The translations under genes were made by a program, and so were the position numbers. 11,326 nucleotides of DNA from Victivallales bacterium. GTDB taxonomy: Bacteria > Verrucomicrobiota > Lentisphaeria > Victivallales > UBA1829. The notes under the pieces were generated by a model that had not been told where the DNA came from, ran no database searches, and saw nothing but the letters and a program-made list of their open reading frames with translations. Of this stretch, positions 2,664 to 11,192 are shown piece by piece. Position 1 is the first letter of the stretch. The number at the start of each line of letters is the position of its first letter. The stretch spans positions 1 through 11,326 of the forward strand of contig JAEEQO010000082.1 in the NCBI GenBank assembly GCA_016285335.1. The letters run 5' to 3'.

Positions 2664-5090
2664 TCAGAGTTTGAGCGTGACGGACTTGCCGGAATATTTG
2701 ACCGTCTTGCACTGTTCGGGATCGGTGCGGGTCTCGCCGACGCCGAAGCCTTCCTTCACCAGCACGACGCGGAACGTGCGGTTCTTCAGCATGCCGGGGA
2801 AGCTGCCCTGGACGTCGCCGATGGTGAGCTTGCCGTCCTTGTACGTGAACTCGATGGTGCTGAACTCGCCTTTCTCATAGTTGTAGTTGTCGAACTCGTC
2901 CTCGTAGAGCGTGAAGGACCCGTTCGCGCCCGGATAGACGCGGATTTCGAGGTCGTCCCACTTCTTCTGTTCGGCGTATTCGACGGGCTCGGCGATCGGG
3001 ACGATGCTGCCGGCCTTCACGAACAGCGGCACGAGGTCGAGCGGAGCGGCGATCGTGACGGTCTGGCCGCCCTCGTAGGACTTGCCGGTGTGGAAGTCGA
3101 TGAACTTGGAGCCCGCGGGCAGGTAGACGTCCCAGTTCTTGGTCTGCGAGACGTCGATGCGGTTGTTCGCGAGATACATGGACTTCACGACCGGGGCGAC
3201 GAGCAGCGACTTGCCGAACAGGAATTCGGTGTCGATCTTGTGCGTCTTCTTGTCGGCGGCGAAATCGGCGAAGAGCGGGCGCATCATGGAGCCGCGGTTC
3301 GCGGAGACGTCGTGCATCATGGCGTAGATGTACGGGATGAACGCGTAGCGCGTCTTGACCGCGCGGACCATGGCGTCGTACACGGGTTCGCCTTCCTTGC
3401 CGAAGTAGTAGATCTCGCGCGGGCCGTCGGTGCCGTGGCTGCGCATCATGGGCGTGAACGCGCCGAACTGCATCCAGCGGGCGTAGAGCTCGGAGAACGC
3501 GACGTTGCGGCTGCGGTTCGGGTAGTTCCAGAGGAAGAATCCGCCGATGTCGGCGTTCCAATAGGGCAGGCCCACGAGGCCCATGTTCAGGCCGCACGCG
3601 ATCTGGTCCTTGAGGGAAGCCCAGCTGGTCACGGTGTCGCCGGACCAGGTGTTCGTGCCGAAGCGCTGCTGCCCGGCGTAGGCGCAGCGGGTCAGGATGA
3701 ACACGCGGTTGCCGTCCGGATTGTCGGCGCGCTGGTGCTCGTAGACGCCGCCGGTGGTGTAGAAGGGATAGAGGTTGCGGATGCGGCGGAACGTGCCCTG
3801 CGCGGTCATGAGGTCGAAGTCGGCGTCCTTGATGTTGTGGTGGTCGGGCTCGGTGGAGTCCATCCACCAGGCGTCGGGGCCGTAGTCAAGCAGCTTGGAG
3901 GCGTAGCTCCAGTAGATGTCGCGGGCGTCCTTGCCGGAGGGGTCGTAGGGACGCGCGCCGCCGGAGCCGCCGACGGACGTGTCGTTCGGCCAGGTGTCGA
4001 TGTCGAGGAGGTAGCCCTTCTCCTTCATGACGGCGAACTGCTCGGTCTTCTGTCCGAAGTCGGGCCAGATCACGAGCATGGCGTGCGCGTTCAGCTCGTG
4101 GACGCGGTCGAACATCTGCTTCGGTTCGGGGAAGCCGGGGTTCAGGAACTGCATGGCGTTCCAGTAGTCGTTGTCCTCGCCCCAGTACTGCCAGTCCTGG
4201 ATGATGCCGTCGAGCGGGATGTGGAGCTTGCGGTAGGTCTCGACGACTTCGAGGAGTTCCTTCTGCGTTTTGTAGCGTTCGCGGCTCTGCCAGAACCCGA
4301 GCGTCCACAGCGCCTGCATCGGGCTGTCGCCGGTGAGCTTGCGCATCTGCGCCACGACGCCGTCGGTGGAGCCGCCGAACATGAAGTAGTAGTCCAGGTT
4401 TTCGCCGTCCTTGAACATGAAGTTCAGCACGTTGTCCTTCTCCTCGAACTCGCCGCTGGCGGGATTGTCCAGGAAGACGCCGTAGCCCTTCACGGTCTGG
4501 AACATCGGCACGGAGACGAATCGGTAGCCCTGATGGATCGGGAACTTGCTGCCGCGCTGGGAGAACTTGTCGTTCTGAGGCTGGCCGAAGCCGTAGATCT
4601 CCTCGTCGGCGTCCACGCGGAACCGCGCGGTCACGGTGTTCGTCTTGCCGCTGGGATACTCGACCGGGGCCATTTTGAATGGAGCGGCGGCGTCTTCGGC
4701 GAGCAGGCGCGTGCCGTCCGGCTTCAGAAATTCGAGCGCGCCGGTCTTGCGGTCCAGGACCACGTTCAGCGCTGACGTCTTCGCTGTGACCTTGGCGTCG
4801 GTCTTTTCGACCTCGACCTGGACTTTTTCCGGTTTGAGGATCACGGTGGGCGTGACGAACGGCGTGGCGGTGCTGTCCGCCGGGGTCTTGGTGATGCGGA
4901 CGATCTCGGGCGTGTAGAAGACGACGCTCGTCACGACGCCGTTGTCCTTCACTTCGAATCCGTTCCTGTTAACATACTTGCTCATTTTGATGTTCTGCGG
5001 TTCGAGGGTTGATTGCGCTTCGTTCGCACAGGCTCCGGCGGCCGCGGCGGCCGCGATCGCCATGCAAACGGGGAGGATGAAAAGTTTCAT
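2664..5090 (-). CDS. Secreted glycoside hydrolase family 31 (alpha-xylosidase / alpha-glucosidase type), 808 aa
   Basis: GH31 enzymes are retaining exo-acting alpha-glycosidases or transglycosylases. The N-terminus is an export signal (MKLF plus an Ala-rich core), cleaved after Ala22 or possibly a lipoprotein signal ending at Cys21. Domains in order: an N-terminal mutarotase-like beta-domain (about 30-230, with FGQPQNDKFSQRG), a TIM barrel (about 240-570), then C-terminal beta-domains ending in a DUF5110-type module (about 715-795, LYEDE at 728-732). The nucleophile is Asp411 in WWMDSTEPD. The acid/base is Asp485 in NTWSGDTVTSW. DWQYW at 299-303 lines the sugar pocket. Both catalytic residues are present and the length is normal, so it should be active. 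The DWQYW/WWMDSTEP style resembles the bacterial alpha-xylosidase and 4-alpha-glucosyltransferase branch, but substrate cannot be fixed from sequence. I see no PA14 insert. The start is supported by GGAGAAG (5095-5101) and by the signal peptide directly following it. Third codon positions are strongly G/C biased compared with the neighbours. It is a single-gene unit with its own promoter and terminator. Confidence 0.95.
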   Translation of the reverse strand: MKLFILPVCMAIAAAAAAGACANEAQSTLEPQNIKMSKYVNRNGFEVKDNGVVTSVVFYTPEIVRITKTPADSTATPFVTPTVILKPEKVQVEVEKTDAKVTAKTSALNVVLDRKTGALEFLKPDGTRLLAEDAAAPFKMAPVEYPSGKTNTVTARFRVDADEEIYGFGQPQNDKFSQRGSKFPIHQGYRFVSVPMFQTVKGYGVFLDNPASGEFEEKDNVLNFMFKDGENLDYYFMFGGSTDGVVAQMRKLTGDSPMQALWTLGFWQSRERYKTQKELLEVVETYRKLHIPLDGIIQDWQYWGEDNDYWNAMQFLNPGFPEPKQMFDRVHELNAHAMLVIWPDFGQKTEQFAVMKEKGYLLDIDTWPNDTSVGGSGGARPYDPSGKDARDIYWSYASKLLDYGPDAWWMDSTEPDHHNIKDADFDLMTAQGTFRRIRNLYPFYTTGGVYEHQRADNPDGNRVFILTRCAYAGQQRFGTNTWSGDTVTSWASLKDQIACGLNMGLVGLPYWNADIGGFFLWNYPNRSRNVAFSELYARWMQFGAFTPMMRSHGTDGPREIYYFGKEGEPVYDAMVRAVKTRYAFIPYIYAMMHDVSANRGSMMRPLFADFAADKKTHKIDTEFLFGKSLLVAPVVKSMYLANNRIDVSQTKNWDVYLPAGSKFIDFHTGKSYEGGQTVTIAAPLDLVPLFVKAGSIVPIAEPVEYAEQKKWDDLEIRVYPGANGSFTLYEDEFDNYNYEKGEFSTIEFTYKDGKLTIGDVQGSFPGMLKNRTFRVVLVKEGFGVGETRTDPEQCKTVKYSGKSVTLKL

Positions 5091-5632: not shown

Positions 5633-5706
5633 GTATCCGGGCTGTTCCCGCCTAATGTCCAGCAAGACTCCCCCCCAACCAGGAAATACCCCACGGAGGA
5701 TTTTAC

Positions 5707-8700
5707 ATGAAAATGAAAACAAAAACGATTCGCCGCCTCGCACTCGTCATGATCGCATTGTCTCTGGCTGCCGCGGTTTTCACCGGATGCGGCAAAAGCG
5801 AAGAAGGCGCGGGAACGAAGACCGAAGCGGCATCCGGCAGTTCGACCCTCGAACAGGAAAAGAGCGCTCCGGGCGAAGCGGAACTCAGGAACGGGCTTGC
5901 GGCCTGTGACAAGAATGACTACGAAGCGGCCGCGAAGTTCTTCCGAGCCGCTGCGGAACAGGGCAACTCGGACGCCATGCTGCTGTACTATGATTGTCTG
6001 GTGAGCAGCAAGATCGCGAAAGACAGGGCCGACTCCGTAGAATGGCTGAAAAAAGCCGCGGAGGCCGGAAACCTGACGGCGCAGGCGCTCTACGGCAGTA
6101 AATTTGTGGGCGGGGGGCAGGAAGCGAAGGGGCTCGAATACATGAAGCGGTCCGCGGACAGCGGAAACATCCTGGGCATGCACCTGCTCGGGATGACCGC
6201 CTTTGAAAAAAAGCCCGGAGAAGCGGGCGAGGATGCCTTGAAGTCTCTGAAAACGCTTGCCGGCCTGCCGTTCTCGGAACAGAAAACAGTTTTGGATTAT
6301 CTGCACCGGATCAGCAGCGACTTCAATCTGACGGGAAAACTCAACACCAATACGAACAAGCTCATCGTCATGGATCAATACATGCTCGGCATGTATTACC
6401 TCGAAGGCAGAGCGCCTGGCGGGCAGCGGGATCTCGACGAGGCGGCGAAGTGGCTGAAGATGGCAAAGGACAACGGGCTTCCCGATGTCGATCCGCTCCT
6501 GCGGAGGGTTGAGGTGATGAAGCAGAGCCCCGACGCAGGCCGGACCAATGAGGAACTCCAGAAGGCCAGAGCCGAAGCCTTCCTGGCCGATACGCAAAAC
6601 CAGATCGACGCTTCGGAATTCGATCTTCAATTCACCATCACGGACGATGACGGCAAGCCGCTGGACGGCGTCATGATGAAAATGAGACTGGAGCGTCCGA
6701 TCGTCCAATTGCTCCTGAGCGGCGAATCGGAATCTAAAGTTATGGAAAAGAAGACGGTCGACTCCAAATTCCGCATTCACGAAAAAGGCTGGACGAGAAT
6801 AGAACTTACGTTCACGAAAAGCGGCTACTATCTCGAAGACCGCTACTATTATATCAACTTCATGCCGAACAGTTCTGACGAGCTCGGCCCGGACGGCAAA
6901 CCGAAGCTCGTGATGAAGGAAGACGTCCAGGTCGTCATGTACAAGGGCGTCCCCCCCGGCGACCTGACCGGGACCAGAGGAACGCTGAGATACGATTTTG
7001 AAAAGGGAACAAGGTCGATCTTCGATCTTTCCGCGTTCGACAAAAAAACGGAAAAACCCAAAAAGACGACCGTTTCCGAGGAGGACGGGGAGGAAGAAGA
7101 CGAAGAAGACGAAGAGGAATATGCGGAGGAGAGAATCAGGATCGAAATGAAGTCGGTCGACCTGAAGGCGAAACCGAAAGCATCAAAATATATCGAACTG
7201 GATTTCAGGCGGGACGAAAACGGCGAGATCTTGTTCGACGGGATGCTTCGGGACACTCCTTGTCCGGCATCGTTCATCATCCGGCTCCATTCCGACGATC
7301 CCGGCGACGGTTTCATTCCCGTGGACAAACCGGGACCTGGATTTGTCAGAAAGAAAGAATACTACAAGCGTTATCCGACCGCCCCGGAAACGGGCTACAA
7401 AAAGGAGCTCGTGCTGGATTTCGGGAAAAAGGATGCCGACGGGAAATACCCGTATGAAACGAATTACCTGTTCGCCTTCGTGAAATGCGGACAGCGCTAC
7501 GGAACAGTCTTTTTCCATCCCATTGTCATTGATGGCGGACCGAACAAGACGATCCGTCAGATCAGGCTGGGGGTCGAATCGCTGACCATGAACCGGACCG
7601 CAGACGACAGGAACGTGTCGGAAGGCAGTTTCTATGTCGAACCCGAACACCCCGCGCAAACCGGGAACGACTTGAAGAAAACGGATGCGAAGAACAAAGC
7701 CGAAAACGCTCCCGAGGACAAGGCCGAACTGGCGAAAAAACAGATCCAGCTGCTCGACGACGCGCTGGAAGTCTACAGGCTGGATACCGGGACCTATCCC
7801 TCCAGTCTGCGCTGCCTCGAAAAGAACATCGACGACGATCCGCGCTGGGACGGCCCCTACATCAGGCCGAACGTGCCGCTGGATCCCTGGGGCAACGAGT
7901 ACCGATACAGCGTCGACGAGACGGGAAAATCGTATCGCCTGACCTCGTCCGGCCTTGCCGAAGCGGGGACCGGGGAACAGAAGGATCCTCCGGAAACGGA
8001 ACAGGAAAAGAATGCCGGAACCGGAGACCGGAAAGAACCGGACATCTTCGCAGGTTTGCCGCTCTGGAATACGGAGCAGGACGGACAGCCCGAAGTCATG
8101 CTCCCCAGACTCGTCAAGGATGCGGCGAAACGTGCGAATGTCAATCTCCAGTCGCTCGGCGACGTCAAGATCGATTCGATCGACGCAGAGCATTCCTACG
8201 CCGACCTCAATCTGGATGTCGTCGACGAATACGGCAAAGTCGTCCGCTTCATCGAAGAAATCGGGAAGAAACCGCCGCGTCTTGGGTGGCACAGACTCGA
8301 ACTCCGCGTCAATTCCGCCCGCGAACGCATCGCGGCCGAACTGCAGGATACACCGTCCGTCGCGGCCTCCGCCAAAGCGATCCGCATGATCGGACGGATC
8401 CGCGTCATCGCGTACACTCCGGTGGCCGCCCCCTCGGCGCCGGCGAAGGAAAAACGGAACGATGACATACCGATTACCCCCGGCGAAACGGACATTCTCA
8501 CCATGCTTTACGATTTGTCTGTCTCGCTCCCCGACGACGCGCTCGTGACCGATTTCCGGCTCTTGATTGGAAAAAGCTGCGAATTCACGATCCAGACGAG
8601 GGAAAGTTCTCCCGACCTCTCTCGATTCCAGCGCTTCCCCGCCTGGAGGCTCGGTCGCCTGGTGCGGAGGGCCATTTCCGACGACGTTTACTCTTTCACC

Positions 8701-9066
8701 GTGGGCCTTGGAAAAAAGGACAATCCGGAGCCGCGAAAGGACAGCGTGACCCCGGAAAACAAGATCAAGACCATCGTGGCTTTGAACCTCTTCGACCCGG
8801 AAGCCGTTCCCCGTAAGGCGGCCTCCTCCGGCATGCCCGCCTCGAACGACACGCGCACGAACAACGCGAAAGACCCCGAAGCGGAACTGAAACAGCAGTT
8901 GCAGAAGGCAATCAACAACCAGAATGAACTGAAAGAACTGCTCAAAACGCTTTCGAAGACGCCGGGCGCCACAAAAGAGCAGACCGATCTGGTCCGCCAG
9001 CGGCTGGAACGCAACGAACAGGAGATCAGGCGCCTTCGGGAACAACTGAAGAAGCTTCGTCCCTGA
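5707..9066 (+). CDS. Mosaic lipoprotein with Sel1-type repeats, beta-module, GspG-type pseudopilin core and PilO/PilN-like segments, 1119 aa
   Basis: Start: GGAGGA at 5695-5700 is 6 nt before ATG. The N-terminus is a lipoprotein signal with basic n-region, Ala/Leu core and lipobox VFTGC (Cys28). Sel1/TPR-like repeats span about 58-272 (motifs AAKFFRAAAEQGN, EWLKKAAEAGN, EAAKWLKMAKDNG). A beta-rich module spans about 305-645 (TVDSKF, RLHSDDPGDG at 526-535, NRTADDRN from 629), with an acidic tract inserted at 458-475. A type II secretion GspG-like domain spans about 671-755: QIQLLDDALEVYRLDTGTYP, then WDGPY at 714-718 and LDPWGNEYRY at 725-734. Residues about 799-905 resemble PilO/GspM periplasmic domains (RANV, YGKVVRFIEEI, PPRLGW). 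Residues 927-1002 resemble PilN/GspL (ILTMLYDLSVSLPDD). NLFDPEAVP follows, then a charged coiled coil (about 1059-1119). The GspG call is firm; the PilO/PilN calls are pattern-based. It should be an envelope lipoprotein with a scaffold role; no enzyme motif is seen. It is first in the cluster. Confidence 0.85.
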   Translation: MKMKTKTIRRLALVMIALSLAAAVFTGCGKSEEGAGTKTEAASGSSTLEQEKSAPGEAELRNGLAACDKNDYEAAAKFFRAAAEQGNSDAMLLYYDCLVSSKIAKDRADSVEWLKKAAEAGNLTAQALYGSKFVGGGQEAKGLEYMKRSADSGNILGMHLLGMTAFEKKPGEAGEDALKSLKTLAGLPFSEQKTVLDYLHRISSDFNLTGKLNTNTNKLIVMDQYMLGMYYLEGRAPGGQRDLDEAAKWLKMAKDNGLPDVDPLLRRVEVMKQSPDAGRTNEELQKARAEAFLADTQNQIDASEFDLQFTITDDDGKPLDGVMMKMRLERPIVQLLLSGESESKVMEKKTVDSKFRIHEKGWTRIELTFTKSGYYLEDRYYYINFMPNSSDELGPDGKPKLVMKEDVQVVMYKGVPPGDLTGTRGTLRYDFEKGTRSIFDLSAFDKKTEKPKKTTVSEEDGEEEDEEDEEEYAEERIRIEMKSVDLKAKPKASKYIELDFRRDENGEILFDGMLRDTPCPASFIIRLHSDDPGDGFIPVDKPGPGFVRKKEYYKRYPTAPETGYKKELVLDFGKKDADGKYPYETNYLFAFVKCGQRYGTVFFHPIVIDGGPNKTIRQIRLGVESLTMNRTADDRNVSEGSFYVEPEHPAQTGNDLKKTDAKNKAENAPEDKAELAKKQIQLLDDALEVYRLDTGTYPSSLRCLEKNIDDDPRWDGPYIRPNVPLDPWGNEYRYSVDETGKSYRLTSSGLAEAGTGEQKDPPETEQEKNAGTGDRKEPDIFAGLPLWNTEQDGQPEVMLPRLVKDAAKRANVNLQSLGDVKIDSIDAEHSYADLNLDVVDEYGKVVRFIEEIGKKPPRLGWHRLELRVNSARERIAAELQDTPSVAASAKAIRMIGRIRVIAYTPVAAPSAPAKEKRNDDIPITPGETDILTMLYDLSVSLPDDALVTDFRLLIGKSCEFTIQTRESSPDLSRFQRFPAWRLGRLVRRAISDDVYSFTVGLGKKDNPEPRKDSVTPENKIKTIVALNLFDPEAVPRKAASSGMPASNDTRTNNAKDPEAELKQQLQKAINNQNELKELLKTLSKTPGATKEQTDLVRQRLERNEQEIRRLREQLKKLRP

Positions 9067-9090: not shown

Positions 9091-9133
9091 AGCCGACTAC
9101 CTCCCGGCAACATCCATGGAGGAAAATAATACC
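9091..9133 (+). repeat. Leader element copy 1 (diverged), with ribosome-binding site
   Basis: CACCACCCCC followed by AGCCGACTA (9091-9099), and further on CAACA and ATGGAGGA, correspond in order to the leader copies at 10088 and 11183, though the centre has diverged and is 8-9 nt longer. GGAGGA at 9118-9123 is 10 nt before ATG at 9134. The gap between the flanking genes is 67 nt, the same as the next gap. Confidence 0.6.
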
Positions 9134-10054
9134 ATGCAACAAACAAGCTCCAGTGAACCGAAAACGAACAGAAAACGGAAATGGCTCAGATCGTGCCTAA
9201 TCGTGTTCCTCGGATATCTCGTCGTGTCCTTCGTCATCGTCTGCTGTTTCGGCGGATGTTGCACGGTCCGGGCGATCGATTATATCTGGCCCAAAGATGG
9301 CAGACTTGAAGATCGGCGTTTCGAGCTGTCGCCCGATGGCAGCGCGATCCTTTATTCTTCCGTGCTGAGAGTATACCGTCCTGATATCGCGGGCTACTAT
9401 ACCATACGCCAGGAAAAACAGCATTTCGAGAAACGGATCCCGTTGGATCCCGTTCCGGACGGCATGTTTCCCTTTACTCTGGTGGTCGAGGAAAATCCAT
9501 CCATACCGCATCCAGAAATCCTGAGCGGTTCGGTGGCGCAGTTTACCGCTTCCCCGGTGCGGCATCTCAGTGAAGAGCGCGACCCCGTTCTCCATCAGGA
9601 TCAAAGCATCTGGCTTTGGCCCGGGGGCACCTTTGTTTTGCCGATTCATCCCGAAGACATGGATAAGCTGTCACGGCCGTTTTGCATTATGGTCCCGGAA
9701 TATGCCAAGCCGTATGATCCTTCGCGAATAAAGCCTGTCCTTGTGTTTCCGCGTGGGAAAATAGGAAAGTATTATGACGTTCTGACCGCGGAAAGACCCC
9801 TCAAGAAGCAATTCGATCCGGGAGGGCTCAGAAACGAATATCCGCACGCCCCGTGGCACTATACGCTGGGTAATTACGTTTTCTGGCCGCAGCCGTTCGA
9901 GGAGGAATATGATGCCATCGCGGTAAAGGAAACACACGGCAAGGTCAAAGGCGGCCTTTTCCTTGTGGGCGGCGCAGTTCTTCTGGATATTGTGCTGCTT
10001 CCCGCTGAGGCGCTGTACTGGATCGGACGGGTGATCATCGAGGAATGTTTCTGA
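9134..10054 (+). CDS. Membrane or lipid-anchored envelope protein of unknown function, 306 aa
   Basis: I chose ATG at 9134 because the in-frame ATG at 9116 overlaps the ribosome-binding site GGAGGA (9118-9123). A basic N-terminus (KTNRKRK) precedes a hydrophobic segment at about 21-39, which ends in a Cys-rich stretch (Cys37, Cys38, Cys42, Cys43). FGGC at 39-42 looks like a lipobox, so it may be either a signal-anchored membrane protein or a lipoprotein. The body (about 45-270) is rich in aromatic residues and proline, suits a beta-sheet fold, and contains no motif I recognise. A second hydrophobic segment lies at the C-terminus (about 273-300) and contains DIVLLP at 285-290. That D-x-x-LLP pattern recalls the C-terminal helix of small YceK-like lipoproteins, a weak resemblance. 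It lies second in the four-gene cluster with 67-nt gaps on both sides. Function is unknown. Confidence 0.8.
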   Translation: MQQTSSSEPKTNRKRKWLRSCLIVFLGYLVVSFVIVCCFGGCCTVRAIDYIWPKDGRLEDRRFELSPDGSAILYSSVLRVYRPDIAGYYTIRQEKQHFEKRIPLDPVPDGMFPFTLVVEENPSIPHPEILSGSVAQFTASPVRHLSEERDPVLHQDQSIWLWPGGTFVLPIHPEDMDKLSRPFCIMVPEYAKPYDPSRIKPVLVFPRGKIGKYYDVLTAERPLKKQFDPGGLRNEYPHAPWHYTLGNYVFWPQPFEEEYDAIAVKETHGKVKGGLFLVGGAVLLDIVLLPAEALYWIGRVIIEECF

Positions 10055-10121: not shown

Positions 10122-11192
10122 ATGAAATACAAATCGGTCAGCACCATCGCCGCGATCCTTGCTGCCGGGTTGATGTGCGGTTCCTGTGCGCATCGGGAGC
10201 CCGCGGATCCGGCTGTTTCGAACGAGTCCCGGAACAGCTTGACCGGTCTCGCGTCCGGCGCGGCAAACAGGCTGAAATCCACGCAAATCGTGCTGGAGGG
10301 AAACATCGTTGACGCGAACGGAAACCTGTTGAACGGCGTCGTTGTCAAGGTCGAGTATTCCCGCCCGAAAACGATTCTCACGTTGTCGGACAGTGCGGAG
10401 AATGAGACAAAGACTGTCAGAGAAACGGTCGATTCCAAGTTCAGTTTCCGGGAAAGCGGCTATGCGGGCGTCGCCATCAGTTTCTTCAAGGACGGTTACA
10501 CGGAGCAAAGCCTGAAGTTCCAGCGGACTGGTCTCCTTTCCGATCGGGAAGACGACGCCGATGCCATGATCCGCCGCGACCTGCGGATCGTCCTGCGGAA
10601 AGCGCGCCCCGTCAACGACTACATCGAAATGAAAAGCGTGCAGATGAAGGTCGACATTCACCGCGGGACCAGAAGGATCTGCGATCTTTCCCCCTCCGGC
10701 TTCGAACGCGGGATCCTCGCGTTGAAGGATGTCCCGTTCGATCGGGTCCCCGGCACAAAATATCTGGAAATCGACCTGTCGCGCGATGAAAACAACGGAG
10801 TTTTGCCTGGTGTAACGGACCAGAAATTGACTTTTCCGGCGGAATATGTGCTCCGGCTCCATTCCGACGATCCCTCCGACGGTCTTCTTCCGGTCGAATC
10901 GTTCGCGGAAGAAGCGCCGGATGCGGAGTATTCCCGGAAGGAAATCCGTCTGACCCTGAACGAACCGAATCCCCGGACAAAGGCCGCCTGCGGCTACCTC
11001 AAAATCGGTGGCCGTTACGGCAGGATCCAGCTGCGATCCCCCAACGTCATAACGGAAATTGACCAGGAAACGTTTCAGTATTTCGTTTCGGGTTACTGCT
11101 GTTATGTCAGCCTTTTCATCAACCGGACGCCGGGCGACCGCAACCTGACGGAATCCGAAACCGCCGCCACCTCGCCACCCTCAGCCGACTAA
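10122..11192 (+). CDS. Lipoprotein paralogous to the beta-module of the 5707 gene product, 356 aa
   Basis: GGAGGA at 10110-10115 sets the start. The N-terminus MKYKSVST plus an Ala/Ile/Leu core ends in CGSC (Cys22), an imperfect lipobox with Cys at -3, so lipidation is likely but not certain. From about residue 54 to 340 the protein aligns with residues 305-636 of the 5707 product: TVDSKF, RGTRRICDLS against KGTRSIFDLS, KYLEIDLSRDENN against KYIELDFRRDENG, RLHSDDPSDG at 245-254, and INRTPGDRN from 333. It lacks the Sel1, acidic, GspG-like and PilO/PilN-like parts. The N-terminal half (about 54-115) has the look of a carboxypeptidase-regulatory-like beta-sandwich (VDANGNLLNGVVVKVEY). No catalytic motif is visible. 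The last three codons and the stop come from the next leader repeat. It is probably an envelope protein co-transcribed with its neighbours. Role unknown. Confidence 0.85.
   Translation: MKYKSVSTIAAILAAGLMCGSCAHREPADPAVSNESRNSLTGLASGAANRLKSTQIVLEGNIVDANGNLLNGVVVKVEYSRPKTILTLSDSAENETKTVRETVDSKFSFRESGYAGVAISFFKDGYTEQSLKFQRTGLLSDREDDADAMIRRDLRIVLRKARPVNDYIEMKSVQMKVDIHRGTRRICDLSPSGFERGILALKDVPFDRVPGTKYLEIDLSRDENNGVLPGVTDQKLTFPAEYVLRLHSDDPSDGLLPVESFAEEAPDAEYSRKEIRLTLNEPNPRTKAACGYLKIGGRYGRIQLRSPNVITEIDQETFQYFVSGYCCYVSLFINRTPGDRNLTESETAATSPPSAD

Follow-up and report, generated by a model that had tools for sequence, protein, structure and literature searches.

The 11,326-nucleotide stretch of Victivallales DNA analyzed here (the window; contig JAEEQO010000082.1) carries a gene whose product appeared to join several parts of a type II secretion system (T2SS) in one chain, which raises the question of where these parts came from and what an envelope protein might use them for. 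The mosaic gene is one long open reading frame on the forward strand (5707..9066, +) encoding 1119 amino acids, and P0001-P0003 are close relatives of its product over the whole length. A likely ribosome binding site, GGAGG (5695..5699, +), lies 7 bases upstream of the ATG at 5707. The protein starts with a signal peptide (5707..5790, +) that ends in the lipobox-like motif FTGC (residues 25-28), which we take to be a lipobox, and the hydropathy scan revealed a sole hydrophobic stretch, that of the signal peptide itself (residues 7-31). Behind this motif stands a solenoid of Sel1 repeats at about residues 57-290 (5875..6576, +), where Pfam PF08238 scored over its cut-off in two stretches and which matched Sel1 structures. 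The following beta-module (residues 298-639; 6598..7623, +) reached the cut-off of no Pfam family; it is shared with the product of a neighboring paralogue (10122..11192, +), which consists of the beta-module only (27.6% identity, E 1.8e-29 by blastp) and has homologous frames beside the mosaics at L002 and L004. The lipobox, Sel1 repeats, and beta-module noticed in the initial annotation were all recovered, and from its sequence the product is predicted to be a lipidated envelope protein. The lipid anchor is plausible for this protein given its FTGC motif, but it is not a general feature, as the signal peptide of the relatives of about 860 amino acids lacks the cysteine.

Between the mosaic gene and the beta-module paralogue, the window encodes a 312-amino acid protein (9116-10054) with two hydrophobic stretches, for which neither a Pfam family over its cut-off nor an NCBIfam match was found. 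Genes for a GH31 glycosidase (2664-5090, -) and a TPR protein (11-2371, +) lie upstream and show no visible link to the mosaic. PADLOC returned nothing for the three proteins of the window or for L001; L018 gave a single marginal row (E 0.0089).

Within the C-terminal half, the first recognizable piece is a GspG head (residues 669-759; 7711..7983, +). It matched PF08334 (T2SSG) over the cut-off (E 5e-18) and was 52.7% identical to the native GspG of L008 (E 6e-28); the full-length GspG equivalog TIGR01710 was missed (55.3 bits versus a cut-off of 88.85). Native GspG has a hydrophobic helix at 8-40, and the mosaic head begins downstream of the equivalent point: no prepilin leader or hydrophobic helix precedes residue 669, the hydrophobic stretch at 7-31 being far away. 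Alignment further showed the loss of the C-terminal FGADGQEGG loop of native GspG, which presumably has a calcium-related role. These losses bear out the earlier claim that the head cannot form a normal pseudopilus. The GspG assignment itself held by sequence, through PF08334 and the native protein; because the model was poor in this region, the match was judged by sequence only.

The remaining pieces are a GspM/PilO-like domain (M; residues 785-908; 8059..8430, +), a GspL/PilN-like domain (L; residues 924-1006; 8476..8724, +), both recognized by sequence and fold, and a GspC-derived tail (C; residues 1009-1113; 8731..9045, +). Because the full-length model was poor (mean pLDDT 57.4, with the C-terminal half mostly below 60), residues 779-1009 were folded alone, giving a pLDDT of 71.4 and a pTM of 0.48 that leaves the arrangement of M and L loose. 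In the search with the predicted structure, the GspM-like domain matched PilO and the L-like domain matched a GspL domain; an E value below 0.001 was reached by only one of the 767 Foldseek matches, and receptor and tail proteins of low probability made up many of the rows ranked below PilO. The PilO/PilN-like folds anticipated within 799-1002 were therefore present, and the reading of T2SS parts within one lipoprotein chain was right for the three that it named (GspG, GspM/PilO, and GspL/PilN). The GspC-derived tail, the origin of the pieces in the lineage's own operon, and the apparent mobility of the M-L-C block, described below, go beyond it.

For the C-module, neither a profile search of PDB sequences nor scans of its members against Pfam gave a meaningful match, and tblastn at E 0.01 found nothing in phage or plasmid collections; its relation to the T2SS became visible only because native genes and structure comparison were used. 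Scanning genome contigs with a single mosaic protein yielded no relative, and scanning them with an alignment of ten sequences yielded nine loci, six from sheep, yak, or goat rumen samples. The named sources of the mosaic's nearest relatives are Lentisphaeria MAGs, and the host bacterium is probably rumen-dwelling. At L006-L009, L-like and M-like genes adjoin and are followed by a third gene that matches the mosaic tail. Pfam detected a secretin with the GspD N0 domain, T2SSE, T2SSF, and T2SSG over their cut-offs at L008, with T2SSK just below. We took this locus to be the native gsp operon, whose order is L-M-C-D-E-F-G as compared to G-M-L-C in the mosaic. On the native proteins, Pfam gave GspL_C for L at E 0.08 only and, at L008, nothing for M and no T2SSC for C; T2SSC was seen for the related L018 only (E 3e-4, below the cut-off). 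The native genes were thus named L, M, and C from their position, their fold, and the T2SSC match in L018.

The M, L, and C segments each correspond by homology to the periplasmic portion of a native gsp gene product. The native M, L, C, and G proteins have one hydrophobic helix each (8-38, 250-276, 1-24, and 8-40, respectively), and apart from its own signal peptide the mosaic has none. The N-terminal anchor of native M (8-38) is absent before the mosaic M domain, while mosaic L matches only the part of native L beyond helix 250-276 and thus has no cytoplasmic domain. The tail aligned with the native GspC of L009 (E 1.9e-10, 35.6% by blastp), the alignment being interrupted at the position of the HR strands. 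It retains the NIFDP segment of the local GspC-like gene (NLFDP in the mosaic) and the coil hairpin, and skips the HR strands between them; the HR domain, which binds the secretin in GspC/PilP, is absent from the window mosaic, and L018 keeps an HR-like end (PF11356, E 3e-4, below the cut-off). Homology, joined by fold in the case of M and L, shows the C-terminal half to be a soluble copy of the T2SS periplasmic face in one chain, G-M-L-C. The nearest counterparts of these pieces are in the lineage's own gsp operon, and their fusion followed a new order and dispensed with the membrane anchors. One MAG, RGIG10120 (G002), holds two mosaics and, on other contigs, native L, M, C, F, and G genes, the C gene being cut by a contig end and MAG binning being subject to error. 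Given this MAG, the mosaic is unlikely to replace the native system. An assembly artifact was rejected since related fusions occur in separate records.

A search with the full mosaic returned 32 related proteins, some of them partial records (alignment A2 comprises 23 of the 32; alignments A1 and A5 were hand-chosen). Their related N-terminal halves either end after the beta-module or go on with variable C-termini: nothing, GspG, M-L-C, GspG-M-L-C, or GspG with four FGE-sulfatase domains. A profile of eight relatives matched 125 proteins, and among the best 120 we found, besides short mosaics, mostly proteins of about 405 amino acids that match the PilN-like part only, and four proteins of 281-304 amino acids that match the PilO-like part only. 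When the block of the serpin fusion P0030 was used as a query, 36 proteins were found, 17 of which, P0030 included, have a serpin domain, in a search confined to 0.55-1.75 times the query length and thus favoring long fusions. All 36 contain M and L, and the serpin hinge (DE.STKAAAATAI or similar) looks inhibitory in 17 of 17, assuming that we interpret this pattern correctly. Some other M-L-C proteins, such as P0168, carry a lipobox-like motif (by eye) without Sel1 repeats, and L018 (451 amino acids) has a Sec-type start (by eye) and nothing but M-L-C with the HR-like end. P0182 (1345 amino acids) combines a Ser/Thr kinase, a hydrophobic stretch at 370-396, an FGE domain, and M, L, and GspC-like stretches. 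Judged by eye, the coils and two HR-like ends are retained in it, though T2SSC did not reach E 0.001. Its makeup resembles that of a receptor kinase with an ectodomain of secretion-platform parts. Judged by such carriers, the M-L-C block is a mobile module, recurring behind unrelated proteins (serpins, a kinase). In P0043, a SIR2 N-terminal stub is joined to a GspL domain and an apparently full GspC periplasmic part. Around the mosaic of L002 (L002:6188-20347), same-strand frames with similar signal peptides encode beta-modules, weak Sel1 repeats, and BspA-type LRR.

To place the mosaics relative to the native genes, we inspected trees of the M and L domains, the first of which were built without duplicate loci and, for L, with only 19 named database proteins. 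In these, 26 mosaics formed one group for M (support 95/88) and 21, including P0043, for L (88/84), in both cases beside natives of the same family. Upon addition of P0182, with the rows of 18 named ids omitted, the soluble mosaics of the L tree still formed one group (25 rows, 99/98), with P0182 and P0043 on the native side, and in the M tree P0182 lay among natives at a poorly separated fork outside the mosaics. The position of P0182 suggests a second capture, although a common origin is an alternative, given that the M-L-C order is shared. GspG is additionally fused to a glutathione-peroxidase (GPx)-like domain, as shown by a Pfam run on L066, and T2SSG frames of 346-364 amino acids were present in seven of 12 genomes, three of the frames having been read. 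This fusion is apparently a separate capture of GspG; the GspG tree took in one of the seven GPx rows. Because the soluble mosaics form one clade, P0182 goes with natives in the L tree, and the GspG-GPx fusion stands apart, T2SS parts were apparently captured on more than one occasion. Profile matches occurred in 32 of 36 genomes of the family and in at least 103 of 197 genomes of the class. Among the matches listed, M and L shared one frame in at least six genomes (G001, G002, G003, G004, G007, and G028), and the block is therefore not needed for secretion. In L066 (1264-2355), L068, and L077, the GspG head of the GPx-like fusion is membrane-anchored and keeps a GSDGKEGG-type loop.

These comparisons establish the composition and origin of the mosaic; for its function, we can offer a proposal. 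Tentatively, we favor the M-L-C block as a docking module on the native T2SS platform. Native GspM, GspL, and GspC at the inner-membrane platform would be the partners of the block's M and L domains, which would bring the fused domain to the machine, here the Sel1 repeats with the beta-module and elsewhere a serpin or a kinase with FGE. The docked protein might stay as an accessory or might itself be a substrate for export, with a platform-like unit already bound to it; without an HR domain, the mosaic should not hold the secretin itself. Two considerations favor docking: components of a single machine were captured and have stayed joined behind exported proteins, and elsewhere GspC, GspL, and GspM assemble into a complex that, its authors suggest, may exchange in a substrate-bound state. 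As described in PMC11981180, XpsC, XpsL, and XpsM form a trimeric complex in another bacterium, which the authors assume may bind substrates and exchange, and the ferredoxin-like periplasmic domains of XpsL and XpsM are predicted to pair. The M-L-C block has the same three components; however, the Xps proteins are three membrane proteins, while the mosaic is fused, anchorless, and attached to other domains (PMC11981180). Also in favor are the homology to four genes of one operon, the PilO and GspL folds, the retention of folded periplasmic domains without the native membrane helices, the recurrence of the block behind unrelated proteins, the apparently repeated capture, the position of mosaic M and L beside natives of the same family, and the presence of mosaics and natives in RGIG10120. 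Of 125 columns that are invariant among nine native sequences for each domain, 43 are moreover retained by at least 90% of mosaics. Against docking, 56 of 83 such columns in M and 26 of 42 in L were not kept at this level (27 and 16 were, in 25 and 20 mosaics, respectively), and the examined flanks of L001, L002, L004, and L005 contained no native L, M, GspC-tail, or GspG frame. The loose M-L arrangement, the small number of listed genomes with M and L in one frame, and the naming of native L, M, and C from position and fold weigh on the same side. Some of the column retention may reflect shared descent; the kept columns D840, E841, Y842, E865, and C958 occur seldom or never in natives from other than the rumen group.

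The T2SS-derived domains change much faster than the machine of origin. In a set of seven mosaics and five natives (omitting L003, L018, L019, and natives outside the rumen group), the median pN/pS, obtained from pairwise counts of non-independent pairs and uncorrected for codon bias, was 0.84 for M and 0.83 for L in mosaics (21 pairs each), as compared to 0.17 and 0.20 in natives (10 pairs each). A face that docks on such a conserved partner should be under tighter constraint, and this rapid evolution is the main argument against docking. It supports instead the possible, though somewhat doubtful, explanation that T2SS folds were repurposed as interaction or display modules of fast-diversifying exported and lipid-anchored envelope proteins. 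Such modules would no longer touch the secretion system, and paralogues would swap cassettes under diversity selection or loose constraint. In line with this, divergence jumps along the gene: pS between the window mosaic and L072 was 0.053 for Sel1, 0.041 for the beta-module, and 0.345 for GspG, and between the window mosaic and L002 it was 0.035 for Sel1 and 0.285 for the beta-module, with the Sel1 values resting on 4 to 6 synonymous changes. Several-fold differences in synonymous divergence between segments of one gene pair are a sign of cassette exchange. The variable C-termini behind related N-terminal halves, including GspG-FGE, the same-strand beta-module, LRR, and Sel1 neighbors in L002, and the loss of HR and the FGADG loop also fit repurposing. 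However, it leaves unexplained the probably repeated capture and the joining of parts of one machine, as well as the coils and HR-like stretches of P0182. Moreover, closer mosaic pairs had lower ratios in M (window-L002 0.58, L001-L005 0.55, and L004-L030 0.11, the last from very few changes); therefore, the M domain is not free of constraint.

Frequent shuffling, high pN/pS, and odd stubs such as the SIR2 N terminus of P0043 would also be expected of recombination debris, that is, chance in-frame fusions among repeated sequences that happen to be still present. We consider this improbable, as mosaic frames of 764-1182 codons are free of stops in several MAGs at pS mostly of 0.2-0.45, related fusions recur in many separate sequences, and the signal peptides look intact.

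Returning to docking, we suggest, with slightly less confidence, that the tethered GspM-GspL-GspC unit, here with the GspG head, might be a portable plug attaching protease inhibitors, solenoid lipoproteins, and receptor kinases to the bacterium's own T2SS. What is attached would form an accessory ring, or it would be cargo joined to a platform unit that can exchange, and the kinase form would sense the state of the machine. GspL and GspM homo- and hetero-oligomerize via their periplasmic domains, according to the same paper (PMC11981180), and the mosaic kept the oligomerizing domains while anchors and HR are gone. Thus, it could be a decoy that restrains or regulates the T2SS by filling GspL/GspM/GspC contacts without a membrane anchor, a role that would suit L018, which is little more than M-L-C. 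A decoy is nevertheless unlikely in our view: the block evolves fast and often stands behind a large extra domain such as a serpin, for which a decoy has no need, though the length limits of our search favored long proteins.

Compared with GspG, GspM, GspL, and GspC of the T2SS, to a periplasmic part of which each segment is homologous, the mosaic is one chain rather than four, arranged as G-M-L-C, and lacks the native membrane helices, the cytoplasmic part of GspL, the HR strands, and the prepilin leader. In the evolved VgrG proteins of type VI secretion, a machine part is fused to cargo, and the mosaics likewise join an apparatus part to an unrelated domain; they differ in the machine involved, in joining several of its parts, and in that docking is here a proposal. 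Amuc_1100 of Akkermansia (6kny) is a separate protein with its own transmembrane region and not a mosaic. Among the best literature matches, fused T2SS parts of this kind were not described. The mosaics show that a secretion machine can supply shuffled domains for envelope proteins. They also bear on how substrates arrive at the T2SS and whether platform subunits exchange during secretion, and for both questions a platform mimic that occurs naturally as one chain, already joined to other proteins, would provide ready-made, testable reagents. As to single carriers, one M-L-C protein, P0160, is labeled Lachnospiraceae while its named relatives are Lentisphaeria, and is perhaps misbinned. A second serpin-like frame (L001:20517-21083, by eye) lies near the serpin mosaic on the same contig.
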